DNA from: Halopseudomonas pelagia
GTDB lineage: Bacteria; Pseudomonadota; Gammaproteobacteria; Pseudomonadales; Pseudomonadaceae
Assembly (NCBI RefSeq): GCF_009497895.1
Contig: NZ_CP033116.1
Coordinates: 124,001 to 188,000 of the forward strand
DNA length: 64,000 bases
Direction: 5' to 3'
The position numbers and the translations under genes were made by a program. A model generated the notes under the pieces. It saw only the letters and a list, made by a program, of their open reading frames with translations, did not search any database and was not told the origin of the DNA. Within the stretch, counting starts at the first letter, position 1, and every line of letters begins with the position of its first letter. This document shows, piece after piece, positions 29,481-47,233 of this stretch.

Positions 29481-29566
29481 GCAGAATCCCATGCAATTAG
29501 TGCACAATGCAGCTATGGATAACACTCGCAGAAATCACAACGCCACACATGGAAGGCAAGGCTAAG

Positions 29567-30829: not shown

Positions 30830-31440
30830 CAATTTCTCACCCTTTGACAGGCACACTGTCGCAGATGCCGGCATTGGCGGAGCTATTTCGATTGTTTCTT
30901 TCCGGCAAGCACCTGAACCGGCTGGCAGAGCCTGCGCTGTGGGCTGAACTGGAACAACAAGAAGACAGCTATACCGCCTTGTTTGTCGCGCTGGGGTTTG
31001 ACCTGCGTTTGGATGCCAGAGGTTTTGCCTGGTTCCACAGCGGAGAAGCCAACAGCAACATAGGCAAAGCCAGCCGCCAGCTGGCCTTGCTTTTCATGGT
31101 GATCTTCGACGCCCAGTCCAATGCAGGCAAAGCCCTGCAACGCTTTACTGACTGGCTGATCGACAGCGACTGGCTGAGCGAAGTCTACAAGCAACAGCAA
31201 GAGCTGCTGGACGCTGAGGGCCTGCACCCTGATGCTCTTCAAGATCATTTGGTTCGCGCCTGCAACCTGGGCTTCGCCGTGGCCGAGCCAAACGGCTGGC
31301 GACTGCTGCCTGCGGTGTGCCGCTACCTTGACCACTTCGAAGGCCTGGCACTGACCGCCAAGGACGACAGCGATGAGGCAAGCCCGGTTGCTGACGAGGA
31401 TACTGCCCTTGAGATAACGGACGACGGGGAGAAGGACTGA
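30826..31440 (+). CDS. mksE: MksE, kite-like subunit of the Mks/Wadjet condensin (JetB)
   Basis: A 204-residue acidic protein. Its sequence ('LAELFRLFLSGKHLNRLAEP', then 'DSYTALFVALGFDLRLDARG' and 'NSNIGKASRQLALLFMVIFD') follows the MksE/JetB pattern of tandem winged helices that bind the kleisin. The C-terminus is a short acidic tail. It overlaps mksF by four bases and mksB by one (TGATG), so production of subunits is coupled. Confidence 0.87.
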   Translation: MTISHPLTGTLSQMPALAELFRLFLSGKHLNRLAEPALWAELEQQEDSYTALFVALGFDLRLDARGFAWFHSGEANSNIGKASRQLALLFMVIFDAQSNAGKALQRFTDWLIDSDWLSEVYKQQQELLDAEGLHPDALQDHLVRACNLGFAVAEPNGWRLLPAVCRYLDHFEGLALTAKDDSDEASPVADEDTALEITDDGEKD

Positions 31441-34193
31441 TGCAGTACGGCTTCCAACGCCTTGTCTTGCTGGGTAGTGCCGGGTACTCGCGCGCCGAGT
31501 TGCCACTGGATGGCGCTGTCTCACTGGTCGCCCCCAACAACACCGGCAAGACCAGCCTGATCAATGCCCTGCAGTTCTTGCTGATTATCGACCGGCGCCG
31601 CATGGACTTTGGTGCGCACGATGTGGAGAAGAGCCGGCGTTTCTATTTCCCCAACAACAGCGCCTATGTGCTCCTGGAAGTCACCCTGCCGGAGTCCGGA
31701 ACAGTGGTACTCGGCTGCGTAGGCAAAGGGGTCAGCTTCGACTACGAATACTTTGCCTATGCCGGCCCGCTCAAGACCGAACAGTTCTGTCTGCCGGATG
31801 GCACACTGGTTGCGCAGCCTCAACTAGCCAGCCATCTGGGCAGCCACGGACGCAGGGTATTCAGCTACAGCGGAAGCGAATTCGCCGACATGGTGTACGG
31901 GGGACGCAGCCGCAAACTCACTAGCCAACAGGACTTTTGCGTGTTCAGACTCGAGCACGCAAACGACGCCAGCGTTTTTCAGCGCGTGCTCACCCGTACA
32001 CTAAGGCTGGACAAATTGCGCTCCAGCGAAGTGAAGGACTACCTCCTGCAGATATTCCGCCGTGACTTGCCAGATGCCAGCATAGATTTCAAGGCTGAGT
32101 GGGACAAGGCGTTCGCCGACCTCAACGCCGAGCGCAGCCAGTACCAAGCCGCCGTGCGCCAGCAACCCTCCTTGAGCGAACTGGAACGGCGACAGGATGC
32201 CCGACAGATACTGCGCGGCAAGTTGCTGTGCTGGCGTCCGCTGATTGATGCGGCGCTGGGGCAGTGGCAGCAGCATTATGAGACCCGCCGACACACACTG
32301 CAGCATGAGCTGGTGCATTGCGATGAAGCGCTACAGCAGTTGCGCGAGCAAGACATTCAGTCGGCAGTAGAGCAGACCCAGTGCAAACAGGAACAGGCAC
32401 AGCTGCGGCAGCAATGCGAACAATTGCACGAACTGCAGCAACGCTTTGCCCTGATTCCCGAGCGCAGCACGCTTGAGTCGCGCCGCCGCAAACTCCAGGA
32501 ACAGCGCGATGCGCTAATGGGACGTATCAGTCAGGTACAGAAACGCTCACCAGTAGCCATTGAGCGAGAGTTGGCTCGACTGGATACGGAGCTGGCCCAA
32601 CTGGTCCAGGAGATACGTACCCAGGGACAGAATCTGTATCAGCAACTGGCCAGCCTGATCCCGGCAGAACAACTTGATGGACTTACCAGGCTACTGGCCA
32701 AACCGGTGCTGACCCTAGGCGCAGTGGATTACCAGCTCGATAGCCATGCACTGGCAGTGGCGCTGGCAGGCACTGATACCGGGCAGCTCAACTTATCCGG
32801 CCTGCGCCTGCGGCTGGAAGCCCTGCCAACACAGTATCAACAACGCACCTTGGAAGAACTTGACGAGCTACAACAGGACTTACAGCAGCAACAGGCTCTG
32901 CTTCGAGAGCAACTGACGACTGTCCGGGAACTGGAAAGTGTAAAACAGCAATGCCATGCACTGGACCGAGAACTGGCAGAGCTGGATAGTGAACTACGCG
33001 ATTACACACACATGCAGGACTTGCAACACAGCAAAGCCGCGCGCCAGGATCGGCTTGAATCCCTGACGCACAGGCTCGTCGAACTCTCTGCCAGCCTGGC
33101 GCAGTCGGCAGACAGGCACCGGGCGCTGGATCAGCAGCGTCAACAGCGAAAGCAGGATCTAGATGTCTTGCAGCAACAGCACCGGCAGATCGAACAGCGC
33201 CGCAACCAACGCATTGATCACGAAGGTTCCTTTATCTGGCTGGCCGACCTACCGCACCAGCCGTGGTTGGCACAACCCGAGTTCCCGCTGGAACAGCTGG
33301 CTGAGCGCCTGAAGACCTATCTGGAGGACTGCCGCCAGTTGCTGGATCTCGATGGACAAATTCGCCAACTGCTGGGTGAAATCCATACCGGCGGACTGAC
33401 CAAATATCAATTTGTTGGCGATCAGGAGAGTGAAATCGCCCGCCTGATTGAATTTGCCCATCACTTGCCGCAAGAAGCCGAAGCCTTGGAAAAGAAAGTG
33501 CGTTCGGCGGTAGTAAACGTGGCTGCCTGCCTGCGCGAGCTGCGCGACGGGCTGCTTGCCTTCAAGAGGCGCATGCGCGAGTTCAACCGCAAGATCAGCG
33601 GGCGCCAACTGTCCGATCTGGCGGTGTTTAAGATCGAACCGGAAGACGAAACCACCCTGGTCGAAGCCATCGAGTTACTGATCAATACCGCGGCCACCGT
33701 GAACAATGGAGATACCTTCGAGCTGTTCAACCAGCAGAGTGTGCTCGACGATGACCAGCTAAACCGTGCCAAGGCCCTGCTGATCGAGGAGGGCAACGCA
33801 CGTCACGGCTTGCGGGTGGCTGATCTGTTCCGCCTGCGTTTCTGGGTCGGCAAGGCGGATCGTGAGCCTGAAGGCTTTGATGACCTCGACAGTGCCGCCT
33901 CCAACGGCACCGTGCTGATGGCCAAGCTGGTGACCGGTCTGGCAATGCTGCACCTGATGCAAGATCAGCGCCGGCCCATTCAAGGCATCTGTTACCTGGA
34001 CGAGGCGCTGGCTCTGGATGCCCGCAACCAGCGCAGCCTGATCGACACGGCTGCGGAGTTCGGTTTTTCGTTGATCTTTGCCTCCCCCGCGCCGCTGACC
34101 ACAGTGCGCTATTGCGTCCCGATCCACCAGCGTAATGGAAGCAACCAGATCAGCCGCTTCAGTTGGCAGATCATCGAACCAGTGGAAGCCTGA
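31440..34193 (+). CDS. mksB: MksB, SMC-like ATPase of the Mks/Wadjet condensin (JetC)
   Basis: A 917-residue SMC-like protein. The N-terminal head has the P-loop APNNTGKTSL (about residues 31-40), with a Q-loop region after it. A long central part (about 270-740) is heptad-rich coiled coil dense in Gln, Leu and Arg, with a hinge-like break near 420-470. The C-terminal head has Walker B GICYLDEALALD. The length fits MksB rather than the longer MukB. It should load on and extrude DNA loops. The operon with a Toprim subunit makes a plasmid-restriction role likely. Confidence 0.9.
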   Translation: MQYGFQRLVLLGSAGYSRAELPLDGAVSLVAPNNTGKTSLINALQFLLIIDRRRMDFGAHDVEKSRRFYFPNNSAYVLLEVTLPESGTVVLGCVGKGVSFDYEYFAYAGPLKTEQFCLPDGTLVAQPQLASHLGSHGRRVFSYSGSEFADMVYGGRSRKLTSQQDFCVFRLEHANDASVFQRVLTRTLRLDKLRSSEVKDYLLQIFRRDLPDASIDFKAEWDKAFADLNAERSQYQAAVRQQPSLSELERRQDARQILRGKLLCWRPLIDAALGQWQQHYETRRHTLQHELVHCDEALQQLREQDIQSAVEQTQCKQEQAQLRQQCEQLHELQQRFALIPERSTLESRRRKLQEQRDALMGRISQVQKRSPVAIERELARLDTELAQLVQEIRTQGQNLYQQLASLIPAEQLDGLTRLLAKPVLTLGAVDYQLDSHALAVALAGTDTGQLNLSGLRLRLEALPTQYQQRTLEELDELQQDLQQQQALLREQLTTVRELESVKQQCHALDRELAELDSELRDYTHMQDLQHSKAARQDRLESLTHRLVELSASLAQSADRHRALDQQRQQRKQDLDVLQQQHRQIEQRRNQRIDHEGSFIWLADLPHQPWLAQPEFPLEQLAERLKTYLEDCRQLLDLDGQIRQLLGEIHTGGLTKYQFVGDQESEIARLIEFAHHLPQEAEALEKKVRSAVVNVAACLRELRDGLLAFKRRMREFNRKISGRQLSDLAVFKIEPEDETTLVEAIELLINTAATVNNGDTFELFNQQSVLDDDQLNRAKALLIEEGNARHGLRVADLFRLRFWVGKADREPEGFDDLDSAASNGTVLMAKLVTGLAMLHLMQDQRRPIQGICYLDEALALDARNQRSLIDTAAEFGFSLIFASPAPLTTVRYCVPIHQRNGSNQISRFSWQIIEPVEA

Positions 34194-34195
34194 GC

Positions 34196-35056
34196 ATGGA
34201 TAGCACTCTGCGCGCCGCCTTGCTCAAGCTGCACGGCCAGTCAACACTGCCCGCCAGCCAGTTCACCCCCGCTCAACGCAGCGCCCTTGATGGCTTTGCC
34301 CGGCAAACCGGCGCGGTGACTTGCCAACGGCAGGGGCGCGGCGATGTGTACCGCGTCAGCGATTCGCAACTGTTTAACATCCACCTAGCCGGACTCTCCC
34401 CCCAGGTCGAGATGCCAAACACTGAAAGTTTACCGCTTCGCGCGCAACACATCGCTCATGCGCGAAACAGCAAGGCACGCAATCACCAGCATGACAGCTA
34501 CTACCCCCAGCTGAAGGCAGTCGGTGACCGAGTGTTCTGGCATCAGGACGAAAACGGCAACCAGCTCCCCCTCAGCCAGCTGACCCAGAATTACGGCGCA
34601 GCCAGCTTGCGACTACAGGCCGAGGACAGCTGGCAAACCTCACAGCCGCTCTGGCTGGTGGAAAACCAGGCGCTGTTCGATCGTACCGACTGGCTGCCGG
34701 CAGATACCCAAGCGACCTTGTTGTACTACGGCGGACAGCTGGATGGCCGACTCCTAGCCTGGCTGGCGAGGCAACCACGCGCCAGCCGCGTGATACTGTT
34801 CCCGGACTATGACGGTGTCGGGCTGGCCAATGTTGCGCGGCTTGTCGCGCTGCTCGGTGAAGCCTGCGAATGCTGGTTGATGCCTGACTGGCAAACCAGG
34901 CTGGAACGCTACGGCAGCCACAGGCTATGGCAGGATACTTATCGCGAGTTCAACAGTGTTGTGTCGCTATTACCGCAGTACCTGAGCCCGCTAACGGTTC
35001 GCATGTGCCAGACGGGACTGGCACTCGAGCAGGAAGCCGTGTGGCTACCGATTTGA
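34196..35056 (+). CDS. mksG: MksG, Toprim nuclease subunit of the Mks/Wadjet system (JetD-like)
   Basis: A 286-residue protein starting at the ATG at 34196, two bases after the mksB stop. The N-terminus is a winged-helix region. The C-terminal half is a Toprim fold: the acidic strand LWLVENQALF holds the Glu, and VILFPDYDGVG holds the DxD. JetD/MksG proteins cleave plasmid DNA sensed by the condensin. It is shorter than many JetD proteins (DUF3322+DUF2220) and may be the variant form used by pseudomonads. All key acidic residues are present. Confidence 0.82.
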   Translation: MDSTLRAALLKLHGQSTLPASQFTPAQRSALDGFARQTGAVTCQRQGRGDVYRVSDSQLFNIHLAGLSPQVEMPNTESLPLRAQHIAHARNSKARNHQHDSYYPQLKAVGDRVFWHQDENGNQLPLSQLTQNYGAASLRLQAEDSWQTSQPLWLVENQALFDRTDWLPADTQATLLYYGGQLDGRLLAWLARQPRASRVILFPDYDGVGLANVARLVALLGEACECWLMPDWQTRLERYGSHRLWQDTYREFNSVVSLLPQYLSPLTVRMCQTGLALEQEAVWLPI

Positions 35057-35357
35057 AGACTCAGCCTCGTGAGCCGTTATTGCAGCAAACTAGAAATTTA
35101 TAACGATATTATCTATAGCTGATTAAGCGCAGGCTCAATCTTTCGCTCTGCACTACCATCAGGATGATCCGTTAGTCAGTTGTTAAATGCGTATATGGCC
35201 CTCGAGACCGCCGAGACGAGAATACGCCTTGCGTCGCCGCAGTCCGCCGCTTAGCATGTTATACAGGTGTCTTACCCTAGATGCGGCTGTAACACATTGG
35301 CCCAAAAATAAATTAAACAGGCCTTGCGCTTCGGAGTGCGAGAAAAAGGAGATTATC
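35057..35357. other. AT-rich spacer upstream of the GRDP/2OG/rSAM/UvrA operon
   Basis: No convincing gene. An open frame runs in from 35187 but its Arg-rich start region has no ribosome site and non-biological composition, so I treat it as upstream sequence. The region must hold the promoter of the following operon. A TATAAT-like AT-rich patch lies near 35098-35118, but no clear -35 match was settled. No short peptide gene with a good ribosome site was found. Confidence 0.4.
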
Positions 35358-35861
35358 GTGTCCCAACAATTTGATGAAGCGGTATTTGAGCAAGCCTTGG
35401 CGGTGACTGCAGCTTGGGATTTCAGTTTAGCTATTGAAAAAATATTGGATGTGAAAAGGGGAGAATGGACTCAAGTGCGTGCCAAAAAAGCCGTGCAAAA
35501 CTATAAGCGTTACATGGCAGTGACTAAGGCGCTGGGTGGTGTGCAAATGGTGCCTAACGGGGATATTGATGAAATTTGGCACCTACATATCCTTGATACC
35601 AGAGCCTATATGGATGATTGCAATGCGCTGTTTGGTGAGTACCTTCACCATTATCCTTATTTCGGCATGCTCGGCGAAGAGAACCGACAGCAATGGCTTC
35701 AGGTACAAAGCGTGTCTACAAGCCTATGGGAGCAGCTATTTGACGAGCCGCTTTACGGTGCCGATAGTGCCGCACAAAAATGTCCACAAGTTTGCCCCTG
35801 CCATATCGACGATTTGACGATCACATCGTCAGGACTGTCTGATGCCCTTAGACGCGCGTGA
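35358..35861 (+). CDS. GRDP-like (glycine-rich-domain-protein type) helical protein with Cys-rich tail
   Basis: A 167-residue protein. I start it at the GTG at 35358, six bases after an AAGGAG box. The core shows 'GDIDEIWHLHILDTRAYMDD' (about residues 68-87) and LFGEYLHHYPYFGM, the DxxWHxH...H.P pattern of GRDP-like proteins, which suggests a metal or ligand site. The last 30 residues are different: they carry three Cys in KCPQVCPCH (142, 146, 148) and end 'DDLTITSSGLSDALRRA'. It heads an operon with a 2OG oxygenase and a radical SAM enzyme, so it could be the protein substrate (core in the tail), a scaffold or a chaperone. I do not know a characterised homologue. Confidence 0.72.
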   Translation: MSQQFDEAVFEQALAVTAAWDFSLAIEKILDVKRGEWTQVRAKKAVQNYKRYMAVTKALGGVQMVPNGDIDEIWHLHILDTRAYMDDCNALFGEYLHHYPYFGMLGEENRQQWLQVQSVSTSLWEQLFDEPLYGADSAAQKCPQVCPCHIDDLTITSSGLSDALRRA

Positions 35862-35864
35862 TTC

Positions 35865-36641
35865 GTGTCGGTGAGTGAGCACCCTATCAGCCATAATGTG
35901 GTGCGTTGGCCCGGCGAAAAGAAAATTCGGAGCAGCGCTCTGCAGCTGGACCAAGTTGCGCTCTCCGAAAATGGCTTCCAAATTATACGCCAATACGGAA
36001 CTGATGTTTCGCGGCTTGAATGTGACTTGGATCGGCTATCGGGTGGCCAGCTGTATTATTCCAACCGGATGGGAGTGCTTTGCCACCAATACAGCGTACT
36101 TCCTGAGAGCCCAAATTTTTCTGAGCAGATGCTTTGCGGTGGTTTCCACTCGGATTTCATGTTCCAACCGAATCCTCCAGCCTACATTGCATTGCTTTGT
36201 CTTCAACAAGACCCCAGGCACCCACTTTATGGCCGCAACCAAGTGGTACACATGCGATCTTTTGTTGAGCGGGTGCAGCAAGCGTTTGGGTTGAGCGAGC
36301 AGGACCTTAAGGAATACAGATTAGTGTATGACCTTGCTGAACGAGGCCGCTTTGAGCAACCGATCCTAGACGATCTAGACGGAAAAACCATTTTCCGGTT
36401 TCACGAACTGTTGTTGGGTAAAAAACAGATGCAGTGGGGCTCGGCCGAAATGTCCGTGGTGAGCATGCTGCATGCTGTAATGATGGATATCACGTCTGAC
36501 ATATGCCTAGAGAGCGGCGATCTGCTGCTTTTATCAAATCATCATGTTCTGCACCGACGCGGAGAGTGCAGTATCAAGTTCGAAGGTTTGACCGGTGAAT
36601 GGCACGCACGGAAAATGGCTAGCATCAGGTTTAACCTATGA
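35865..36641 (+). CDS. TauD/clavaminate-synthase-like 2-oxoglutarate Fe(II) oxygenase
   Basis: A 258-residue oxygenase. The iron-binding HxD is in 'GGFHSDFMFQPNPPAYIALL', the distal His and the 2OG-binding Arg are in 'LLLLSNHHVLHRRGECSIKF', a layout like asparagine/arginine hydroxylases (AsnO, VioC) in the TauD fold. It starts with GTG at 35865, three bases after the preceding stop (another GTG lies at 35871), and its stop overlaps the next ATG (ATGA). A free amino acid or a peptide residue is a likely substrate. The pairing with a radical SAM maturase favours a peptide. Confidence 0.75.
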   Translation: MSVSEHPISHNVVRWPGEKKIRSSALQLDQVALSENGFQIIRQYGTDVSRLECDLDRLSGGQLYYSNRMGVLCHQYSVLPESPNFSEQMLCGGFHSDFMFQPNPPAYIALLCLQQDPRHPLYGRNQVVHMRSFVERVQQAFGLSEQDLKEYRLVYDLAERGRFEQPILDDLDGKTIFRFHELLLGKKQMQWGSAEMSVVSMLHAVMMDITSDICLESGDLLLLSNHHVLHRRGECSIKFEGLTGEWHARKMASIRFNL

Positions 36642-37915
36642 ATTATGGCTTCAACACTCGGTACAGTATTGAGAATCAGACCGCTGCAGGTCACGGGATA
36701 GTTTTTTTTATTCGAAAAGAGCATCGAGACGATATAGTCGTCTTAGATGAACTCTCAGTTGCACTATTAGAAAGAGCAGAAAAAACAGGGGGAATCAGTG
36801 AAAGTGATGCGGACAAAGCCACCTTCGCACGACTAGTAGGCGAAAATATCTTAGTCCCCTTCACTCCTTCTGACTCCTTAGAACATCTTCCATATGTTGA
36901 AGATCTCAATTTCTGGTTGCAGGTAACGGATAGCTGCAATCTAGCTTGTAGCTATTGCTATATCCCATCATTGAATAGCAATCAGCTGTTTCGCTCCGAT
37001 CTGTTTGACGTCCTTACGCGCAAGCTATTGGAGGTAAAAGGCCTGCGTACTGTGAGCATCAAACTCGCAGGTGGCGAACCCTTGATGGCGTTCAAAAAGT
37101 GGCATGCGAATGTTGCCAAACTCAAGAAGGTACTGGCGGAAGAGAAAATCGAACTGCAGCTGCGGCTAATAACCAATCTTACAACACTGACAGATTCGAT
37201 GATCGATTTCATTAAGGAATACGATATTGCAATCTCAGTCTCTCTTGATGGCCTCGCCGCCTACCATGACAAGAACAGAATTTACACGGGCACACAAAAG
37301 GGTACCTTTGAGGTTGTCGATAAGAACATCAAACGGTTGCAACATGCGGGTATCACTCCAAGTGTAATGGTCACAGTAACGTCAGAAAATCACAAGGGCA
37401 TTCCGGATCTGGTGGGCTATCTAATAGAGAACGATATCACCTTCCGTCTTGCCGATGCTAAAGGCGGGTACATTAATCCCGGTGAGTTCCTTTCTGCTAT
37501 GGAGAAAGTCTCTGATGTGATCCAAGCCGGTGTGGATGATGGCTTTCCAGTAAGTAGGCGTATTGTTGTCTCCGATTTGCGTACCCATTACCCCAGCTCA
37601 ACCCCCTGCTCGATGGGTAAGAATGCTGCAGCCATTTATCTAGATGGCTCAGTCTATTTTTGCCATACCGAATTTGGCAAGGGTAAGCCGCTGGGGCATC
37701 TCGATGATGACAAGGGGCTTCTGGATATTATTCAAAAAGGCAGGGAAAGACACTTTGGTTTGAGCGATGACTGCCAGCAATGCGAGTACCGACTGATTTG
37801 TGCGGGTGGTTGCCCTCTCTATCGTGTAGAGGGAAAGAGTCCCATGTGCCAATCCTACAAGAAGATCATCAGGCAGGTATTCGATTTATATGAGCGCGAA
37901 AAAGACCTTCTTTGA
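36638..37915 (+). CDS. Radical SAM/SPASM peptide- or protein-modifying enzyme
   Basis: A 425-residue iron-sulfur enzyme. The [4Fe-4S]-SAM motif is CNLACSYC (Cys 100, 104, 107), preceded by an ~85-residue N-terminal part that could be a leader-recognition-type winged helix ('LSVALLERAEKTGGISESDA'). GGEPL follows (KLAGGEPLMAF). The SPASM domain is rich in Cys: TPCSMG, VYFCHTEFG, 'DDCQQCEYRLICAGGCPLYR' and PMCQSYK, enough for two auxiliary clusters. SPASM proteins usually modify ribosomal peptides or activate sulfatases. Here no sulfatase is present, so peptide or protein modification is preferred. Overlaps the next gene by 26 bases. Confidence 0.88.
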   Translation: MNYGFNTRYSIENQTAAGHGIVFFIRKEHRDDIVVLDELSVALLERAEKTGGISESDADKATFARLVGENILVPFTPSDSLEHLPYVEDLNFWLQVTDSCNLACSYCYIPSLNSNQLFRSDLFDVLTRKLLEVKGLRTVSIKLAGGEPLMAFKKWHANVAKLKKVLAEEKIELQLRLITNLTTLTDSMIDFIKEYDIAISVSLDGLAAYHDKNRIYTGTQKGTFEVVDKNIKRLQHAGITPSVMVTVTSENHKGIPDLVGYLIENDITFRLADAKGGYINPGEFLSAMEKVSDVIQAGVDDGFPVSRRIVVSDLRTHYPSSTPCSMGKNAAAIYLDGSVYFCHTEFGKGKPLGHLDDDKGLLDIIQKGRERHFGLSDDCQQCEYRLICAGGCPLYRVEGKSPMCQSYKKIIRQVFDLYEREKDLL

Positions 37916-40900
37916 AATCACCGGTATTACCGAGAACAATCTCAAGAACATTGACTTCTATGCAGAAGCCGCAGAAGTGATTTTGATTAATGGTGTTAGC
38001 GGGTCTGGAAAATCCACCTTAGTCAATCAGGTAATAGCGGCTGAGGCAATGCGGCAGAGCAAGCTACGCCGCAAGAGCGATAATCTCTTTGATTACTGTG
38101 TCCGCCCTAATTTTCAGGCCGCAACTCGCATGCCTGAGTCAGCCATAATTTCTCAGCGCTCCGTCATGCCTTCTGCGTCATCGACCTTCGGAACACGAAC
38201 AGGACTCAATGATTTGCTGATCAGGCTATTCGTTCAGCGGGGCGAGATTCATTATCGCGGGAGCACGATTTCTAAACCGAGTATTGAGACTATCATACAG
38301 TTTCGTCAGCTGTATCACCCGCAGGCTCGAATACTAGGTTGCATTGCTCGCTATGAGGAAATTGGACGTACCCAAATAGACCTTCTACGTAATGCTGGGA
38401 TCAAGCAGGTTTTCCTTCGGGCAGAAGGAAAACATGCACTGAGGCCACTTGCTCTGGGCAAGCTGGTCACCTCCAAGCTTACTGCATGTGAGGTCTTCAT
38501 TGATTTAGATATTGGCGATGCCCCAGCTCTGTTGAAAAAAAGCAAAGCAGTCCCAGTACTGATGGATGACTCCCTTGAGATAGATTTCAACGAATGCGGC
38601 GTTGCGCTAGAAGACGGGACGGTCTTTAGGTTGCCATCCAAACTGTTGTTTTCACGCTCAGCAATGTCGTCCCACTCAGGATGCTGCCGAGTATGTGGCG
38701 GCACTGGAACTGTGACTCACTACGATGTTGAACGGACCGTTGATGGACAGGCTCCATTAAAAAACGGTTTCCTGAATGTCCCGCTCTCCCCATCGGGACG
38801 TTACAAAGGTTTTAAGTTTCTACCTTCTGGCCTCTTAGCCTTGCTGAAGAAGGAAGGAATCGATGTTAATAAGTCATATTGCTCTCTCAGTAATGAGCAC
38901 AAATCAACAATTCTGAATATTTTGAAAGACAAGCTAGCCCGAAACAATAACGACCCCGCAGCTCAGCAATTTATTTCTATTGAGCCATGCAATGACTGCG
39001 AGGGAAGTGGCTTAGGCTGGCAGGCTCGATCGGTCACCTTCAATGGAAAGTCCATAGCCTACTTTTTCGGGCTAACACCATCCAAATTACTTACCGAGTT
39101 ACTATTTCCGGTTACTAATAAGGATGATGGCATGCACAAGCTACGAGTCGTGCTGGATTACCTATCGGCGCTGTCCATTGACCACATCAATCTGAACAGA
39201 CCTACTTTGAGCATGAGCTCAGGTGAACTTCAAAGAATGAGGTTACTGCCTGTACTAATCAATCAATATTCAGGACGCCTCGTAATTATTGATGAGCCCT
39301 CCTCGAACCTACAATATCGTGACAACCTAAAAATACTCCAACTCATCAATCAGCTAAGAGCGCGCAACAATTCGATTCTCATTGTGGACCATAACCCGGT
39401 GTATCGCACGATCGCTGATAGGACAGTAAAGATTGGACCTGGTCCGGGACATAGGGGCGGTTTTTACTGCGTAGCTGACGATTACGCTCAATCAGTCGCT
39501 GGCTTGGGCAATTTGGTTAAAAATTTCAAGCCAGCAGCCGATTTTAAATATATCACCCTCGAGTTACAACGCTTACGATCTCTACATTTGGAAAAGGTAC
39601 GTATTCCTTATAGTGCTTTCACCGCAATTATCGGATCCAGTGGGGCAGGAAAGTCTACATTATGTCGCGAACTAATCTACCCGGCACTACTGCAGCGTAG
39701 TGAAAACGTCGTTCTGCTTGACAGCACTCCACCGCGTGGCGCCTCAAACTCTATTGTGGCTACCTACCTTAACGTATTCGATAAAATACGAAAGTTTTAT
39801 GCCCAAAGTGACGGTTGCGAGTTAGCTGAAAGCGATTTCAGTTTTAATTCAACGGGGGCATGCGGTCACTGCCAAGGCACGGGTATTGTTGCCGAACAGG
39901 TCTGCAGTCTGTGCTTTGGTAGTCGCTTCAGATCTGAAATAGCGCTATTAGGTGTTGAGGGAATTACTCTTACTGATCTATTGGCCGCCGACCTAGACCA
40001 AATTCCTTTGGACGGCGGACTAGCCTTTCTCTCTGCAGCGATAAATATTTTGAAACGGCTTTCTCTTTCTCACCTTAGTTTGGGGCGAAAGACCGGAAGT
40101 CTTAGCGGTGGCGAACTGCAGAGACTAAAAGTCGCCAGATTCTTAATGGCGCATCAGTCTGACCGCAACTCTAGTAGCTCGTTTGTGATCCTGGACGAGC
40201 CTTGCCGTGGGCTTGACCCTCAAGCAGTGAAAGACCTTTTCGAAACACTGAAGGATTTTCTGTCAGATGCGACTGTATTAGTAATCGAGCACAATCCTCA
40301 TTTTATATACAGGTGCGAATTCATAATAGATATGGGCGAGGGCTCTGGGCTTAAAGACGACTCCACGGTGGTTCAAGGGCAAATAGGAGAGAAAGAATTC
40401 CCCAGTCTCAATCACGCGCGGATATTGACAGAGTCTGGTTCGCCTAACGGTCTTCTAATTCCTTGTGAAGAAACTGATCTTCACATCGAGGATGACGAGT
40501 TTCCTAAGGAGCTAAACGGAAAACGTTATGGGTTAATCCTTCCACTTTTTATCAAGCAGAAAAACTTTGCTCTCGAAGAGAAATTCAGTGAATATTTTAA
40601 CCTTGTAACCCCTGATGACAATATTTTTTTACACAGAAGTCGAGAAGCGTTGGAGCGCGCATTGCAGAAGGAGCGCCGGTTTTTCTTCAATCCGTTCATT
40701 GCGCTACTAGAGCGTTTCCCACGAGTACCGATATCACTGCAGCGAGAAATTCTCAAGAAATTCGACAAGCGCAATATCGACTGCGATGATAATCCTTGGT
40801 CATTTAGGGTGTGTGCCGATTCGCTGCAGTCAGCTTACTTGAATGGAGCCGGCGTGGTAATAGTGCCTAGGACAAACGGGAACTTTGACTATCACACAGT

Positions 40901-41441
40901 ACGCTTATTAAGCCTTCATGAGCGCGTAGTAGATCGAGCCTTCCCTCACGAGTTCGCTTTTAATTTATATAGGAACTCCTGCCACTATTGCAGCGGTTAC
41001 GGCCACATTCAGAGCTACCCCTTAAGAGAGTGGATCAATTCCTCATGCTCCGTTCTCGAAAGTGATTTCATGCACTACCCCTTACATAAAGTGATCCCTA
41101 AGGCGACGATTAAGCGTTTCGCCAAGGAGGAGCTATTTGATCTTTCAAAGCCTGCTGTAACTTTATCCGAGCATGAACTAAACATCCTACTTTATGGCTT
41201 CAAGGCATATAAATTTAGAAAGCGAGATGAACGCGATGACTCAGAGTCAGCATTCTTTGAGTGGCGTGGAGTGAACTCCTACCTGTATCGTAATGCCGAA
41301 AAGCTGAGTCCAGGCAAAAACATCAATAATTCCATAGAGTGGTTAACTTGCCCTTTCTGCATACAGGGATATTCCGACAAGGTCAGGTTTTATGGGTTTG
41401 AAGGCGGTGTTATTACTGACTTCTTGAGAGAGGATTTATAG
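37890..41441 (+). CDS. UvrA-like double ABC ATPase with C-terminal zinc-finger extension
   Basis: A 1183-residue soluble protein built like UvrA: two ABC cassettes (Walker A GVSGSGKST near 35 and GSSGAGKST in the second half; signatures LSMSSGELQRM and GSLSGGELQRLKVA; Walker B RLVIIDEPSS and FVILDEPCRGLD), each with inserted zinc modules (CCRVCGGTG...CNDCEGSG and CGHCQGTG...CSLCFGSRF). It is not housekeeping UvrA, which is ~940 residues: the first insertion is divergent, and about 310 extra residues follow the second cassette, containing CHYCSGYGH and CPFCIQGY, possibly a third zinc unit. No membrane segment. UvrA paralogues such as DrrC protect producers of DNA-binding compounds. Here it could give immunity, act as effector or handle the modified product. 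It overlaps the radical SAM gene by 26 bases and is lower in GC than its neighbours. Confidence 0.85.
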   Translation: MSAKKTFFEITGITENNLKNIDFYAEAAEVILINGVSGSGKSTLVNQVIAAEAMRQSKLRRKSDNLFDYCVRPNFQAATRMPESAIISQRSVMPSASSTFGTRTGLNDLLIRLFVQRGEIHYRGSTISKPSIETIIQFRQLYHPQARILGCIARYEEIGRTQIDLLRNAGIKQVFLRAEGKHALRPLALGKLVTSKLTACEVFIDLDIGDAPALLKKSKAVPVLMDDSLEIDFNECGVALEDGTVFRLPSKLLFSRSAMSSHSGCCRVCGGTGTVTHYDVERTVDGQAPLKNGFLNVPLSPSGRYKGFKFLPSGLLALLKKEGIDVNKSYCSLSNEHKSTILNILKDKLARNNNDPAAQQFISIEPCNDCEGSGLGWQARSVTFNGKSIAYFFGLTPSKLLTELLFPVTNKDDGMHKLRVVLDYLSALSIDHINLNRPTLSMSSGELQRMRLLPVLINQYSGRLVIIDEPSSNLQYRDNLKILQLINQLRARNNSILIVDHNPVYRTIADRTVKIGPGPGHRGGFYCVADDYAQSVAGLGNLVKNFKPAADFKYITLELQRLRSLHLEKVRIPYSAFTAIIGSSGAGKSTLCRELIYPALLQRSENVVLLDSTPPRGASNSIVATYLNVFDKIRKFYAQSDGCELAESDFSFNSTGACGHCQGTGIVAEQVCSLCFGSRFRSEIALLGVEGITLTDLLAADLDQIPLDGGLAFLSAAINILKRLSLSHLSLGRKTGSLSGGELQRLKVARFLMAHQSDRNSSSSFVILDEPCRGLDPQAVKDLFETLKDFLSDATVLVIEHNPHFIYRCEFIIDMGEGSGLKDDSTVVQGQIGEKEFPSLNHARILTESGSPNGLLIPCEETDLHIEDDEFPKELNGKRYGLILPLFIKQKNFALEEKFSEYFNLVTPDDNIFLHRSREALERALQKERRFFFNPFIALLERFPRVPISLQREILKKFDKRNIDCDDNPWSFRVCADSLQSAYLNGAGVVIVPRTNGNFDYHTVRLLSLHERVVDRAFPHEFAFNLYRNSCHYCSGYGHIQSYPLREWINSSCSVLESDFMHYPLHKVIPKATIKRFAKEELFDLSKPAVTLSEHELNILLYGFKAYKFRKRDERDDSESAFFEWRGVNSYLYRNAEKLSPGKNINNSIEWLTCPFCIQGYSDKVRFYGFEGGVITDFLREDL

Positions 41442-41698
41442 TGGTCAACTTATTCGGGACAGTCATCAAATCTTCCTGTGCTTGGCGGCTACCAAGCCGC
41501 CACTGGGCTGACGCGATCTCAGCCGAGTTTAGCTCATCATCAGTATTAAATTATATTCCGCCGTGCCTCTTTGAACGCCTTATATCCAGCACTTTGTATC
41601 TTTTCAGACTTTTAGCTGGCGGACTGCCTCTTCGATGGCGCATTGGCGAGTCAGCGCAGCAATTTCTTCATAAGCTCATGATTCTTTCCATACGGTAG
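41441..41698 (+). CDS. Small unknown ORF coupled to the UvrA-like gene
   Basis: An 85-residue frame starting at a GTG that overlaps the UvrA-like stop by one base (TAGTG) and has an AGAGGA box six bases upstream, so translation is plausible. The sequence ('MVNLFGTVIKSSCAWRLPSR' to 'GESAQQFLHKLMILSIR') has hydrophobic patches but no clear membrane helix or signal. I recognise no family. It could be a genuine small protein, or the 5' end of a longer gene cut off when the recombinase module arrived; the module's last stop is 75 bases further. Confidence 0.45.
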   Translation: MVNLFGTVIKSSCAWRLPSRHWADAISAEFSSSSVLNYIPPCLFERLISSTLYLFRLLAGGLPLRWRIGESAQQFLHKLMILSIR

Positions 41699-41772: not shown

Positions 41773-44700
41773 TTACTGCTTTGCGCCGGCGCACTGCGGT
41801 TGCTCATAACCGACTCCGTCGACCATTATCGCAAGCATGTGAAACACATAGTTCAGCAGCTGCGAGGAAAACTGCTTTATGTGCTTCCTTTTACCAATGA
41901 TTTCTTTTTCGTTGATATGCCTTAATCTCAGATATGCCTGAACCGAGCTGCCCTGGGAGACCTCTTGCATTTGGTAGCTTATGCCTAGCGAACGCCAGGT
42001 ATCCAGCTCTTCAATGGAAACCTTTGGAGCTACTAAAATATTCAAGCCCCAGCGTCCTTTAGGTATGACCCGTTCAAGTGAATTTACAAATTTTGCTGCA
42101 TCTTCAAAATGGGTAAACCGTGTACCTGGCTTCGCTTGGCTCGTGTTATTTTTCCAATATTCTATACACCACCTAATTCCTATACTGTCTTCGCCGTATG
42201 CGTCCCGCAGAAGCGAGATCACCTTATCAGTCTCAGCCGCGGTCGCTCTATCTTGAGGTCTTATCGGCGCCAAGGGGATTCCGATGGCCTTTGGGACCAC
42301 ATCCTTGGGGAAGTGTCGACTGTTTCCGGCCTTTGTAGTTAAACTTTGTATTTCCTTAGCAGCCTCACGCCATCCAAGTATTTTGTTTTTATCAATGGCA
42401 TAACGCACAGAAAGCGTAAGGACAGGGTCACCATCCTCCAGATCACGAAGTACAGCGTGGCAATCACGAACTGTTGGCTTCGGTCTCAAAGGCGTGTAGG
42501 GAGCTTCTTCAGTCGCAACAGTGCTTAACGTTTTTGTCTTAAAGGTCCGAGACATCGGCGCAAGCCGTTTCAAAATCTCGGGCCGCATAGCTGAAAGCCT
42601 GACTGTTTCGTCATTAGCAATGAAATACGGATTTATGGCCTTAGACGAAAGACCACTTAGACGAGAAATTTGCTCTTTGTCCAGCACTGGATCGAATTTA
42701 GCAAGCTGCTGCCAGAAGAGCAGGCTTGTCTCATGAACGTAGTACAAAAATGTTGTATCAGGCACCAGGTGCCCAGCAAGCCCGGCTATCGCACTGTACT
42801 TGTCTCGACTACTCATCGGATTTGAGCAGAACAACTCAGAGCGTATTTTTTTGGCCTGATCAACACTGTATCCGGTCAGCTTTTGAATTAAGTCCGGATT
42901 CTCCTCCATCACGACAAATATGTTTGTCAAAGTACTGTGTCTGAAGTGATGGAATGACAGCTCATCCAGGCCCTGGAAGCTTAGAAGGTCCTTGGTGAGG
43001 CCTGAAACGATGCTGCCTCTATACGGTACACTCACTGCATGCGGTTCTGAAAAAAGCAGTGTGTTTATGTGATTCTTGTTTTGAGCAAGACGGTGGTTTA
43101 AATACTGACGAAACCGTTCTAGCTCGTTAGGCAGCAGCAGTAAGTAAACGGGAATTCTTCGACGTGCCGAGTCGGTTTTATTGTTCCCGTAGCGATTATT
43201 TACCACATAGAACCAGTACTCATCAGACTTTTCGATGTCTGACAGTCTCAGCTTGAGCAGCTCCCCTCGCCGCAGGCCGGTGCGGTATGCCAGGATCAGG
43301 AGCACAGCAAGACCTTCCTTTGTGTCTCGGTCAACGCCCGTCAGGTTTCGCACGCCTCGAATCATGGCTTGGTAGTTGTGCTCCGGGATGTACCCTGTCC
43401 TGACCTGTGGCTGTAACTGTGTATCGCCCGCGCACTCAAAAAAGCCGGTTAACTCGGGTAGTCCGTAATGATCCGACTGGGTTGCGAATCGATGTAAATC
43501 CCGCAAGCGAGCTTGGAGATAATTCAGGGACTTGATTTTCTCCCCAGGCTTGAAAGTAAGTATCTGCCGATAGACCTGTTCGAGCTCGCTTTCATCCATA
43601 TCATCGATGTCAGCTTCGTTTGTATGAAACAGCCAAAGACTTCCCAACTCGGAAAAGTAACGCGAAGCCGAAGACACCTTGATTTTGCGTGTGACAAGAC
43701 AGTCGAGGAGCCAGTCGACCAGAAGGGCAGCGTTCAACGGGAGCGCTTGACCACCTATTTCCTGCAGCCGCGCTATGGCACGAGCTGGCGTATTTTTTAC
43801 TCCGGAAATCTCTGCCTGCAAAGCAGCACTAATTTGCTTTATAAGAGCGTCTACTGATCTCTTTTCGCCGGAATCTGAGTAGCTGTTTTGGGTTCCGTGG
43901 TTTAGAGAGGTTTTTGGCTGGCCACATTTCCAGGCGATCTGCACGCCGCTTAGGGAAAACGTCTTCGGCGTGGCGTCGTCAAGAGTTATCAGAAGCCACT
44001 TCTGTAACAATTTCGACGGTAGCGACACTGAACCAACACGACCCGCTGCGCACTCTAGCAATGCTTGCGGCAACTCAACATCAGGTAATGTTTCTGTAAC
44101 CGCTTGAGCACCTTGGCAGAAGGCGCTGAGACTAGTGATCGAATTTTTTTGAGTGCTGCCTGCCAGCCTCTTCCTCAGAATCTCCCAAACGTCAGATTGA
44201 TTACGCTCTCCAGATTCTCTTAGGTCGGTGTATTTCTTTATGTGCTGAAACTGAACGAGCTGTCCGAGTGTTCTGTTGTCTGGATAAAACCTATGGAGTG
44301 ATTGCCATTTTGTACCGCTTTCGTCAGAAGCCTTATCATTCAAGGGGTCTTTATCACCAATTAAGATCAAATCTATCCAAGCAAACGCACCGTTGTCCCC
44401 GGCAATTTGTAATGGCTTAGGCTCACTAACGAGCACATTGGCGAGGCTGGTAACTGCTCGGGGATTTGCCAAGCCTCCATAAAAAAGTGCTGAAATAAGT
44501 ACATCGGCCAGCCTGGTTTCTGGATCTGATGAATGCTTTTCGATAGCCAACTGGTGCAGCCAACTCTGGTACAGCTTGCCGGCCCTGATGCCTGCCTTGA
44601 AATTGTGATGACTTCGGCTAGTGGTCGTCCTCGAAACACTGACAATAATTGCCGGTATGTCCAGTTGCCATAAACCTTGCTCATTGCCTTTCGCTACAAA

Positions 44701-44943
44701 ATCAGCCAGAAACTCGTAAGCGATCTTAAACCTTTTAATATCAGGGTATTCCGTCCTGAGAAAGCGTTGAAAGTTATGTACTTGAGCACCAAACTCCTCA
44801 CGATCAAGTGGACATCCCGATAGTGCAGGCAGGTGAGTAGCTATCAAGCCGGGCATAGCGTCATGCACCTGCGCTTCAGCATTCGAGTAATTTATGTTAT
44901 TTCTTTTTGCCCGCAAAGCCGAGCCATACAGAGGCCTACTCAT
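41773..44943 (-). CDS. Very large tyrosine recombinase, third gene of the recombinase trio
   Basis: About 1056 residues from the ATG at 44943 (AGG box eight bases upstream). The catalytic domain is central: AYRTGLRRGELLKLRLSD holds the first Arg, FHHFRHSTLTNIF the HxxR pair, and GHLVPDTTFLYYVHE the GH and Tyr nucleophile. Long N- and C-terminal regions (about 550 and 300 residues) are unlike ordinary phage integrases. It overlaps the preceding recombinase gene by eight bases. The three-gene set resembles mobile modules with two large recombinases and a small partner, such as the Gamma-Mobile-Trio; I cannot confirm that identity. Confidence 0.82.
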   Translation of the reverse strand: MSRPLYGSALRAKRNNINYSNAEAQVHDAMPGLIATHLPALSGCPLDREEFGAQVHNFQRFLRTEYPDIKRFKIAYEFLADFVAKGNEQGLWQLDIPAIIVSVSRTTTSRSHHNFKAGIRAGKLYQSWLHQLAIEKHSSDPETRLADVLISALFYGGLANPRAVTSLANVLVSEPKPLQIAGDNGAFAWIDLILIGDKDPLNDKASDESGTKWQSLHRFYPDNRTLGQLVQFQHIKKYTDLRESGERNQSDVWEILRKRLAGSTQKNSITSLSAFCQGAQAVTETLPDVELPQALLECAAGRVGSVSLPSKLLQKWLLITLDDATPKTFSLSGVQIAWKCGQPKTSLNHGTQNSYSDSGEKRSVDALIKQISAALQAEISGVKNTPARAIARLQEIGGQALPLNAALLVDWLLDCLVTRKIKVSSASRYFSELGSLWLFHTNEADIDDMDESELEQVYRQILTFKPGEKIKSLNYLQARLRDLHRFATQSDHYGLPELTGFFECAGDTQLQPQVRTGYIPEHNYQAMIRGVRNLTGVDRDTKEGLAVLLILAYRTGLRRGELLKLRLSDIEKSDEYWFYVVNNRYGNNKTDSARRRIPVYLLLLPNELERFRQYLNHRLAQNKNHINTLLFSEPHAVSVPYRGSIVSGLTKDLLSFQGLDELSFHHFRHSTLTNIFVVMEENPDLIQKLTGYSVDQAKKIRSELFCSNPMSSRDKYSAIAGLAGHLVPDTTFLYYVHETSLLFWQQLAKFDPVLDKEQISRLSGLSSKAINPYFIANDETVRLSAMRPEILKRLAPMSRTFKTKTLSTVATEEAPYTPLRPKPTVRDCHAVLRDLEDGDPVLTLSVRYAIDKNKILGWREAAKEIQSLTTKAGNSRHFPKDVVPKAIGIPLAPIRPQDRATAAETDKVISLLRDAYGEDSIGIRWCIEYWKNNTSQAKPGTRFTHFEDAAKFVNSLERVIPKGRWGLNILVAPKVSIEELDTWRSLGISYQMQEVSQGSSVQAYLRLRHINEKEIIGKRKHIKQFSSQLLNYVFHMLAIMVDGVGYEQPQCAGAKQ

Positions 44944-47233
44944 GAGCACGACCTTGGCCGGTAAGAGGGATAATTCCCAACCTACTGAAGAGCTGCTCTA
45001 TCACCAGAGCAATCGTCTCCAGCGCCTTAATGCTCATTCCGCTATATCGGGTTAGTCCTTCCTGTCCTGGCTTCGCATGACCCATCCAGGTATCGATTGA
45101 TTCCCCAGTAACCTCTTTTTGCCTTAGCAGGTAGCTGCGTAAAAAATGACGGTGCCAGTTCGATGGCAGACCTAAAGTACCCTCCCAGAGATCTTCAACA
45201 CTTTTAGGGGAGACAGAAACCATGCTGAACTCGTCAGTCATGTCACCTTGCCGTATGAAGAAGAACAGTCGGTCTTTCCCATTGAGTGCGTCTCCGAGCT
45301 GTTTAGCAAATGTAGGGGATAAGCTCTGCATCTGGATATGCAGTCTTTCCAGGTGTTTGTTGTAGAGCTTGATTTGGGTTACGGCGGTGTCTGGCAGAAC
45401 GAGGGTCCGCGCAGAGCTGGACGTCAGTCGCGACTCCTTATCTGAAATGAAGATTTTTTTACTTATTAGGTCGATGTGGTCGATGTCATCAAAGGGATCT
45501 GTAACGGGGCGATGACCAGTAGCAATATTCAAGAGATGAATTGTGTACATCACGTACCGGTTGTGTGCTTCGATCCAGCTTCGGTCTTTTAATCGCTGAA
45601 GGCTTTTCTGTAGGTGGTCAAAAATTGCGATAACTGCTTCTTCCTTGACCACCAACTGCGAGCCGCCAAGCTCAGATTTACTCTCATCTGGATCTGGAGT
45701 TTCAGTCCTCAGCTCGGTTTTCAGGTAACTTTGATAAGCCCTATAGATGGAAACGGTGTCATATTGGGTGTAATAAAGCCCTGCCTCCTGGATGTCAGGG
45801 CTTCCAATAATCAGGGCGGTCAGAACATCATCTACTCCCTGACGATGTAGGTAATTCGCCAAGTGATCAGCAATTTTGCTGACCGACAACTTGGTAGAGT
45901 TCGCTTTATTGATCCTTTTGAGAAGCTCCTCAGCTTGAAGCTCTAACTCTTTGCCATCAGGAAGGGTACGAACCGCCTTCGCGGCGCAGGGCACTGGCAT
46001 CACCACGGCAGCTTTTTGCTGATCCAGCAGTCGCTGTTGCTTTTCGGGTAGCCGATGAGGTGGTAGTTCGTAGCGGTATAGCCAGTAGATACTGCCTGAC
46101 TGTCCTAAACGGTATGCATCGCCGGTTTCATGAAAATCACCGGTTCGAGCTACCTGCCTAGCCTGTAGAAGCTTTTCGGGCTTACGACCTGTCGCCAGTA
46201 CCAGATATAGCATGTATGAAACATCGCAGAATTCCATCCGGCTTGCGAGCTCCGACAGCAGTATCCCCACTTCGTATTTGGTTAGTCTGTTAGTCAGGCA
46301 AACCAGTCTCTTTTCGCGCCTTTCAAGGGCGCCGGCTACGATCTTCGCGTGCATAGCACTCAGGGCATACGATCTCCGCAAACTGGCTGGAGCATTTTTT
46401 TCAGCCTGTGCTGCCAGAAAAACACCCGGGGTTTGGTGGTCCGCACGGTACTCTGAGGTCTCTTGTGTTACGTCCGACAGGGTCGTCTGCAGCGACAATT
46501 CGATATAACCTGGTGTTTCGTCTGTCTCAAGCGCATATCGCGTGCTGACTGATTGAGAGACTGTATATATCAGAGAACCACCGCTTCTTTGACCGCCGAC
46601 CGAGACAGTTCCCTCATCTTCAGAAGCGTTGCGTCGTGTACGTTTGTTCTTAAGATTTCTCGAAACGACATCTTCCAGTATTCGCCGCACTGGCATCAGC
46701 CGCTGCTGGGCGTAGCTTTTATGTGAGGCGGCCAGGCTGCCCAAGATCAGATCAATGCTTCCTAACAGGCTCTCCAAGGTGCGGCTTGCAATAGGCAGCA
46801 GCTTTTCAACCTCGAGGCTATTCAGACGTTTACTAGTTTTTGTACGATCCTCGACGAGTAGACGATACGCAGACATTGCTCGCAGCGTCCTTCCCAAATC
46901 TCCAAATGTCTTTTGGTGTTCAAGGGCGGCTAATAGGACGAAGGACTGCAAATTTTGTAGTGATGCTGACGGAGGAGGTGTACACAAAAAAGCCTCGGCT
47001 TGCGCCTCCGTGATTTGCTTCTTCTCCCGCAGCTGTCCAAGAAGGTTTTTTAAATGCTCCTCACAAGGATCATCATCGTGCGGGTAGGCACTGGCATACT
47101 GCTCTGCGAGGCCTTTTAAATCATTACCATATTCAGAATCCAGCACGCATCCAGATAGAATTTCGTTCGCCCGTCGCACGAGGACATTAGTAGTGTGTGC
47201 GTCATGCTCCAGCCTCATCAGTATTTGAATCAC
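44936..47233 (-). CDS. Large divergent tyrosine recombinase, second gene of the trio
   Basis: A 765-residue protein starting at GTG (47233), overlapping the ParB-like gene by four bases (GTGA). The C-terminal catalytic pattern is present but divergent: GHRPVTDPFDDID for the first Arg, NWHRHFLRSYLL for HxxR, WMGHAKPGQEGLTRYS for GH and Tyr. The N-terminal 450 residues are helical and without known domain to me. It is translated together with its neighbours and presumably acts with the 1056-residue recombinase at one or two attachment sites. Confidence 0.78.
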   Translation of the reverse strand: MIQILMRLEHDAHTTNVLVRRANEILSGCVLDSEYGNDLKGLAEQYASAYPHDDDPCEEHLKNLLGQLREKKQITEAQAEAFLCTPPPSASLQNLQSFVLLAALEHQKTFGDLGRTLRAMSAYRLLVEDRTKTSKRLNSLEVEKLLPIASRTLESLLGSIDLILGSLAASHKSYAQQRLMPVRRILEDVVSRNLKNKRTRRNASEDEGTVSVGGQRSGGSLIYTVSQSVSTRYALETDETPGYIELSLQTTLSDVTQETSEYRADHQTPGVFLAAQAEKNAPASLRRSYALSAMHAKIVAGALERREKRLVCLTNRLTKYEVGILLSELASRMEFCDVSYMLYLVLATGRKPEKLLQARQVARTGDFHETGDAYRLGQSGSIYWLYRYELPPHRLPEKQQRLLDQQKAAVVMPVPCAAKAVRTLPDGKELELQAEELLKRINKANSTKLSVSKIADHLANYLHRQGVDDVLTALIIGSPDIQEAGLYYTQYDTVSIYRAYQSYLKTELRTETPDPDESKSELGGSQLVVKEEAVIAIFDHLQKSLQRLKDRSWIEAHNRYVMYTIHLLNIATGHRPVTDPFDDIDHIDLISKKIFISDKESRLTSSSARTLVLPDTAVTQIKLYNKHLERLHIQMQSLSPTFAKQLGDALNGKDRLFFFIRQGDMTDEFSMVSVSPKSVEDLWEGTLGLPSNWHRHFLRSYLLRQKEVTGESIDTWMGHAKPGQEGLTRYSGMSIKALETIALVIEQLFSRLGIIPLTGQGRAHE

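Follow-up and report, generated by a model that had tools for sequence, protein, structure and literature searches.

A recurrent four-gene operon with a cysteine-tailed GRDP-like protein and a UvrA-like ATPase: a possible RiPP-like system

What might be the product of an operon that encodes a small GRDP-like protein, an oxygenase, a radical SAM enzyme and a large UvrA-like ATPase? The question is raised by a 64,000-nucleotide stretch of the Halopseudomonas pelagia genome (contig NZ_CP033116.1, positions 124,001 to 188,000; hereafter the window), in which positions 35358-41441 of the + strand hold four closely packed genes for a GRDP-like protein, a TauD-like oxygenase, a radical SAM/SPASM enzyme and a UvrA-like protein. 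The answer proposed here, for which we see about an even chance, is a system resembling those of ribosomally synthesised and post-translationally modified peptides (RiPPs), with a precursor fused to the GRDP domain and a UvrA-like ATPase that would serve DNA-level immunity or action. A sequence-only reading of the same DNA had suggested that the operon makes a modified peptide or protein; the data support this in kind, and they point to the GRDP-like protein itself, which that reading had not seen in this role, as the likely substrate.

Genome contigs were scanned with the C-terminus of the UvrA-like protein, which yielded 15 loci. All four genes were found in the same order in eight of these (L009-L016), from two Pseudomonas species, a Pseudomonadaceae metagenome-assembled genome (MAG), Caballeronia, Amphritea, Azospira, Azohydromonas and an Alcaligenaceae MAG. 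A tenth locus of this kind, here called type A, came from a search anchored on the GRDP protein (G959/L104), and the gene order is kept in 10/10 complete loci (the window plus nine). Among the seven other loci of the scan, L018 (Sulfurovum) and L019 (Mariprofundaceae) belong to type B, described below, L023 is an ordinary UvrA, and L020 and L022 end at contig ends; the last two are taken up where the proposal is weighed. The flanks were compared through 98 open reading frames (ORFs) of at least 80 aa within 8 kb of the ten type A operons. At 1e-5, nine similar pairs were found between loci, seven of them integrase-like (22-31% identity) and two unassigned (45% and 34%), and none involves the window. 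The recurrence of the four families as one operon in unrelated surroundings, which the earlier reading had named as support for a system, is thus borne out. Integrases lie immediately 3' of the operon in L010 and L011 (Pfam); in the window large tyrosine recombinases follow it, with a Phage_integrase match in one of the two that were scanned.

The GRDP-like domain carries invariant WHxH and HH motifs. In the AlphaFold2 model, residues 1 to about 130 form a helical domain, mostly confident with a dip near residues 100-110, and pLDDT lies below 50 from residue 146; as modelled, the folded part gives way to a disordered C-terminal stretch that bears the motif QKCPQxCPC. The tail could be judged in 103 of 116 homologous sequences, and [KN]CPQxCP[CG] was present in 101 of the 103 (once in 96, twice in 3 and three times in 2), frequencies which are upper estimates, since the homologue search shares words with the query tail. 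One of the remaining two has CPQxCP twice without the last C/G, and the other has no motif. Over all 116 sequences, CPQxCP is missing from nine (fragments included) and occurs in two or three copies in six. In 91 single-motif homologues, the mean frequency of the commonest residue is 0.96 in the motif, compared to 0.55 in the linker before it, 0.43 in the part after it and 0.91 in the folded core. Each comparison of the motif codons with the four closest loci gave no nonsynonymous and 2-4 synonymous differences; over the ten type A loci, each of the eight fixed motif positions uses at least two codons, and the variation is synonymous only. A gene-encoded precursor with a conserved core motif, as expected of a RiPP, is therefore present as a sequence pattern. 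Taken together, the conservation of the motif, its synonymous-only change, its tandem copies, the low model confidence of the tail and the other cysteine-repeat tails described below lend moderate support to the GRDP-like protein being a substrate of the operon's enzymes via this tail.

Two such candidate enzymes, both of peptide-modifying kinds and with intact catalytic residues, sit in the operon. The oxygenase was assigned to the TauD/TfdA family (38.6 bits against a Pfam cut-off of 27) and has the HxD...H...R pattern; HxD was seen by eye in 13/13 aligned rows, and the distal His (LHxR) and an Arg 18-19 residues further on are likewise present in 13/13. Its nearest solved structures are clavaminate synthase and amino acid hydroxylases. 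In the radical SAM enzyme, CxxxCxxC and seven further cysteines of the SPASM pattern are invariant in 10/10 sequences. The closest known enzymes are radical SAM/SPASM peptide maturases that act on cysteine (the PapB family, CteB, ChlB and SkfB) and the anaerobic sulfatase maturases (anSME). The structural neighbours of the window enzyme are anSMEcpe, 5wgg (which we take to be CteB) and ChlB. Residues 1-76 form a separate beta/alpha domain, and most structural alignments start at residue 84-90. The enzyme was rejected as a ranthipeptide maturase of the PapB family, as it scores 125.3 bits against the 340-bit cut-off of the model NF047865.

The units of the operon are listed in Table 1. The GRDP-like gene was taken to start at the GTG at 35358; a longer ATG frame from 35187 is mechanical and was set aside in favour of AAGGAG and this GTG. 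A gap of 3 bases separates the GRDP-like and oxygenase genes, the oxygenase and radical SAM genes overlap by 4 bases (ATGA), the radical SAM and UvrA-like genes overlap by 26 bases, and the UvrA-like gene meets a further frame, ORF5, at TAGTG. As had been remarked before, the operon is lower in GC than the one preceding it (about 0.46-0.49 against 0.58-0.61). Pfam scans recognised GRDP-like (7.5e-5), Radical_SAM (7.3e-18) and SPASM (5.7e-5) domains, together with ABC and UvrA domains in the UvrA-like protein. ORF5 (41441-41698, 85 aa) had no family above the curated cut-off in the family-library scans, and tblastn at 1e-3 found no counterpart to it in the 15 related loci, so that the operon was counted as four genes; the fifth frame looks spurious. 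Of the five tight frames on one strand described earlier, the order and spacing of four stand, and the fifth, being unconserved, is dropped.

Table 1. Features of the window operon and of the related loci with a separate peptide
Feature	Position	Strand	Evidence
Likely ribosome-binding site AAGGAG of the GRDP-like gene	35346..35351	+	Sequence; six bases 5' of GTG 35358
GRDP-like protein, 167 aa, proposed precursor: helical domain to about residue 132, then disordered cysteine tail	35358..35861	+	Pfam PF07173; AlphaFold2 model; 116 homologues
Proposed core/substrate motif QKCPQVCPC, residues 140-148	35775..35801	+	Homologue conservation, codon comparison
TauD-like 2-oxoglutarate/Fe oxygenase, 258 aa	35865..36641	+	PF02668 1.5e-9
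Radical SAM/SPASM enzyme, 425 aa	36638..37915	+	PF04055, PF13186
UvrA-like ATPase, 1183 aa, two ABC ATPase modules and a third C-terminal module	37890..41441	+	TIGR00630, motifs, tree, PF17755
GHCQGGG peptide, tail-less GRDP and MATE-like protein	L089:6752-8733; L112:7708-9681; L113:8632-10622; L126:207-2160; L127:1243-3274

The UvrA-like protein has the attributes of the UvrA-type ATPase superfamily, namely two ABC modules, zinc/insertion modules and cysteine pairs, and two Walker A and two Walker B sites are present in all 12 UvrA-like rows of types A-C. It was nevertheless rejected as the strain's nucleotide excision repair UvrA: it scores 321.5 bits with TIGR00630, below the equivalog cut-off of 729.8, and the host genome has its own 944-aa UvrA elsewhere, which makes the operon protein a paralogue, as had been supposed. 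The operon recurs elsewhere and the strain's ordinary UvrA lies elsewhere, so neither of the two findings that would have told against the sequence-only reading was made. In a tree of 25 rows (midpoint root for drawing only), the type A, B and C proteins are split by a 100/100 branch from nine canonical and double UvrA rows. No match to the UvrB-interaction domain PF17760 was obtained at E up to 10 within residues 100-260 of the window protein, compared to 1.2e-39 across the same residues of the strain's own UvrA. The type C proteins keep a partial match (2.1e-5), and Walker A and the first zinc pair lie a comparable distance apart (231 in the UvrA-like protein, 246 in the strain's own UvrA), which suggests that this domain has diverged rather than been cleanly lost. 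A third cysteine-motif pair (near residues 1031 and 1154 of the window protein) marks a C-terminal module of the zinc/insertion type that has no ATPase. With a simple pattern, both halves of this pair are recovered in type A and C rows; among the three type B rows, the pattern finds the second half only in two and neither half in one. The module matches the UvrA DNA-binding domain PF17755 in the window (7.8e-5) and more weakly in L104 and L013; no such match was found in L105 or L077.

The operon was also compared with related arrangements. Searches with a GRDP profile gave matches in 31 of 369 genomes of the class (1e-3), 11 of 390 of the order (1e-30), 12 of 398 of the family and 6 of 398 of the phylum (both at 1e-20), in overlapping draws that each include the window's genome. 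Around the matches, 37 stretches were searched again at 1e-5 with queries of all three operon types, and five of them contain both an oxygenase and a UvrA-like gene (L076, L077, L104, L105 and L121, the last on the same contig as L019). In type A, the KCPQxCPC tail goes with the oxygenase, the radical SAM enzyme and the UvrA-like protein (10/10 loci). Type B (L018, L019, L105; 3/3) has the order GRDP, oxygenase, methyltransferase, UvrA-like, with tails ending in CR, of the forms NPCxxTxCR or SCGCRSGNGSSCR (SCGCR..SSCR); in L018 and L019 a pentapeptide-repeat protein is encoded inside the operon before the UvrA-like gene. Type C (L076, L077, L086; 3/3) has GRDP, methyltransferase, oxygenase, a UvrA-like protein of about 1400 aa and a second methyltransferase, and its tails end in xCxxQxCP (ARSCAPQRCP or ARGCKSQNCP). 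The oxygenase and the UvrA-like protein are thus common to the three types, and a change of tail is accompanied by a change in the other tailoring enzymes, the radical SAM enzyme being replaced by methyltransferases in types B and C.

Cysteine-bearing tails were also observed on GRDP proteins outside these operons. Fifteen (L068-L075, L093-L098, L123) share RC..H(A/S)CHxxxxC(A/G)CRxxxAC(K/R). Repeats of WCSL (three, Variovorax, L087) and of YCAR or YCAL (five, Cupriavidus, L088) end others, and L124:8772-11138 has two adjacent GRDPs with nine YCA(G/S)PH and eight FCAGPH repeats, in which the spacers vary and the motif is constant; the first of the two genes holds a tandem repeat of 69 bp x 7.8. 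A further type has no tail. In 5/5 distinct loci (L089 from Halomonas, G1069, G1036, G1593, G1568), its GRDP is preceded by a 40-65 aa peptide that ends in GHCQGGG and Trp, and followed by a 427-444 aa membrane-type protein, the other four being 26-33% identical to the Halomonas one; a marginal MatE match (5.1e-4, below the cut-off) was obtained for one of three that were scanned. This set looks like a compact peptide system. A broader conception, tentative and in our estimate somewhat unlikely, would make the GRDP-like domain a new peptide-modification module: a His-rich (WHxH...HH), possibly metal-dependent enzyme or carrier, either fused to one to nine cysteine peptides or acting on a separate peptide, which with the radical SAM enzyme and the oxygenase would yield a DNA-targeting warhead, the UvrA-like ATPase acting against or with it.

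Under the RiPP-like proposal, the radical SAM/SPASM enzyme, whose fold is that of cysteine-acting peptide maturases, would alter the tail cysteines by radical chemistry (to a thioether or an oxidised Cys, for instance), and the TauD-type oxygenase would hydroxylate a tail residue; the catalytic residues are observed, the chemistry is our conjecture. UvrA paralogues encoded beside tailoring enzymes can confer self-resistance to DNA-binding products, and pentapeptide-repeat proteins can protect gyrase or give self-resistance to DNA or gyrase poisons. From this background, together with the pentapeptide-repeat proteins near GRDP genes in three loci (L018, L019, L055), we infer by analogy a DNA-level role of the UvrA-like ATPase: it would act on DNA, most likely by clearing away or blocking the product at that target, which would protect the producer, as the sequence-only reading had also suggested, or, less likely, by delivering the modified protein to DNA. 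Unshared flanks, with integrases in some loci, suggest that the operon may spread as cargo of mobile islands.

Several results weigh against this proposal. Of the 37 GRDP-anchored stretches, 32 lacked any oxygenase match, and a single short ABC match was all they gave to the UvrA-like queries; some of these 32 nonetheless have GRDP proteins with cysteine tails. The eight class-draw loci L030-L037 showed neither a cysteine tail nor an HCQGGG peptide in the DNA examined, so that neither is universal in the GRDP domain family (the frame in L036 holds an internal stop). L017 and L021 are partial UvrA-like loci in which neither GRDP nor oxygenase was detected. The homologue search itself favoured tail-bearing sequences, which raises the tail frequency. 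The Pfam scan gave the radical SAM enzyme no match to the leader-binding PqqD domain at its N-terminus, and among the genes of the type A operon it showed neither an exporter nor a protease, with flanks only partly annotated.

This lack of an exporter or protease, together with frequent defence-type neighbours, makes intracellular defence the main rival, in our view an unlikely one: the modified GRDP protein would stay whole and work with a UvrA-like protein that senses foreign or modified DNA in an anti-phage or anti-plasmid system, with nothing secreted. A Mks/Wadjet-like four-gene operon lies immediately upstream in the window (29507-35056), although PADLOC recognised only its large protein, weakly (JetC 8.6e-6, LmuB 1.5e-8). 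An HNH restriction-type gene neighbours the operon in L009, MkoA (2.7e-93; presumably a component of the Mokosh system) and PDC-M26A do so in L014, and Dcm, Vsr and DUF2357 genes adjoin the type C operon of L086 on an Azospirillum plasmid. Homologues of type I restriction-modification genes (1e-5) were present in the fetched flanks of 9 of the 15 GRDPs with HACH-type tails (L079, L081, L082, L083, L085, L106, L107, L109, L111), three of the nine by HsdM alone; the HsdR and HsdS queries were identified by Pfam in L083, and for the HsdM query the assignment comes only from its position next to HsdS. The conflict role that the sequence-only reading had favoured would be drawn only from such neighbours (restriction-type, Mokosh-like, restriction-modification and integrase genes). 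Conversely, none of the four proteins had a specific PADLOC match, and identity with a known anti-phage system of that library was rejected. Of the many ABC models that the UvrA-like protein matched (25 of 59 listed), two were mad3 (4.1e-48) and mad8 (8e-22); the other operon proteins had no mad match, the flanks not having been scanned for MADS as a system. The radical SAM enzyme matched viperin (5e-16), and GRDP, oxygenase and ORF5 matched nothing. Elsewhere GRDP is accompanied by a small peptide and a MATE-like protein, and tails come in tandem copies; both are more in keeping with peptide cores than with an effector.

Quite unlikely, in our judgement, is that the tails are metal-binding (copper, zinc) or redox peptides, modified or not, in a metal- or thiol-stress system whose UvrA-like protein repairs the resulting DNA damage. 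The mixture of Cys and His in CPQxCPCH, RC..HACHxxxxCACR, the YCAGPH repeats and GHCQGGG would suit it, as would the MATE-like protein beside the separate peptide, a protein reminiscent of the methanobactin exporter MbnM. However, the MatE match is the marginal one given above, the type A operon has no metal transporter or metal regulator, and metal storage would be an odd task for a set of oxygenase, radical SAM enzyme and UvrA. An ordinary accessory DNA-repair paralogue (UvrA2-like) placed by chance beside unrelated genes is very improbable, for although both ATPase modules and the UvrA-type zinc modules are retained, the gene order holds in every complete type A locus with few shared neighbours, the window protein has no recognisable UvrB-interaction domain and the tree sets it apart.

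The RiPP-like reading was also set against known systems. DrrC and Ecm16 are UvrA-like self-resistance proteins of DNA-binding antibiotics, and like them the window protein is a stand-alone UvrA paralogue encoded alongside tailoring enzymes; it differs in its extra C-terminal module without ATPase, and its small operon lacks the large synthases of those products. Measured against PapB-type maturases, the radical SAM enzyme stays far below the family cut-off (125 bits against 340), and in place of a short leader-core peptide it would act on the tail of a folded 167-aa protein. A short conserved motif in a variable tail, tandem copies and an operon of tailoring enzymes recall RiPPs with repeated cores or large folded leaders; unlike those, the leader here would be the helical GRDP-like domain and its invariant WHxH and HH motifs, and we know of no RiPP class with such a leader. 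Methanobactin and bufferin systems share cysteine-based cores and, in the type with a separate peptide, a MATE-like protein, but the operon proteins' listed Pfam matches include no MNIO (DUF692) domain. The apparent novelty means that the family libraries used gave no match and that no such system is known to us. If the RiPP-like reading is true, it would give the GRDP-like domain a function in bacteria and define a class of peptide precursors with a folded leader of about 130 residues, which ordinary RiPP searches would miss. It would also tie the product to a UvrA-like ATPase, so that the target (DNA) and the chemistry become directly testable with four genes.

Some further neighbourhoods were recorded. 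Several of the HACH..CACR-tail loci (L078-L085, L106-L111, L123) have conserved small neighbours, F3, F4 and a DUF2188-like protein; in four, a conserved 90-118 aa protein lies just 5' of GRDP (L108:8778-9089, L109:8093-8449, L111:8875-9186, L110:9272-9544), by eye perhaps a RelE-like toxin. In L124 a sensor-like protein (CHASE-like by eye) is encoded upstream; in L088 and L087 the upstream genes include EAL or CHASE-GGDEF-EAL proteins. At L055:7793-9139 (-), a GRDP with a KRCPNCGRR tail is directly followed by a pentapeptide-repeat protein, and the Halomonas GHCQGGG locus adjoins an acyl-homoserine-lactone synthase gene. A half-length UvrA-like protein in Thioploca (L017:3600-7370) is encoded in one run with a further radical SAM/SPASM gene, a protein of WG-repeat-like type and a histidine phosphatase. 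In the window, the tyrosine-recombinase set that adjoins the operon occupies 41773-47817 (-); relatives of two of its members (23-24% identity) stand beside a cysteine-tail GRDP gene of another genome at L109:10253-16031 (-), so that the same kind of element may carry both.

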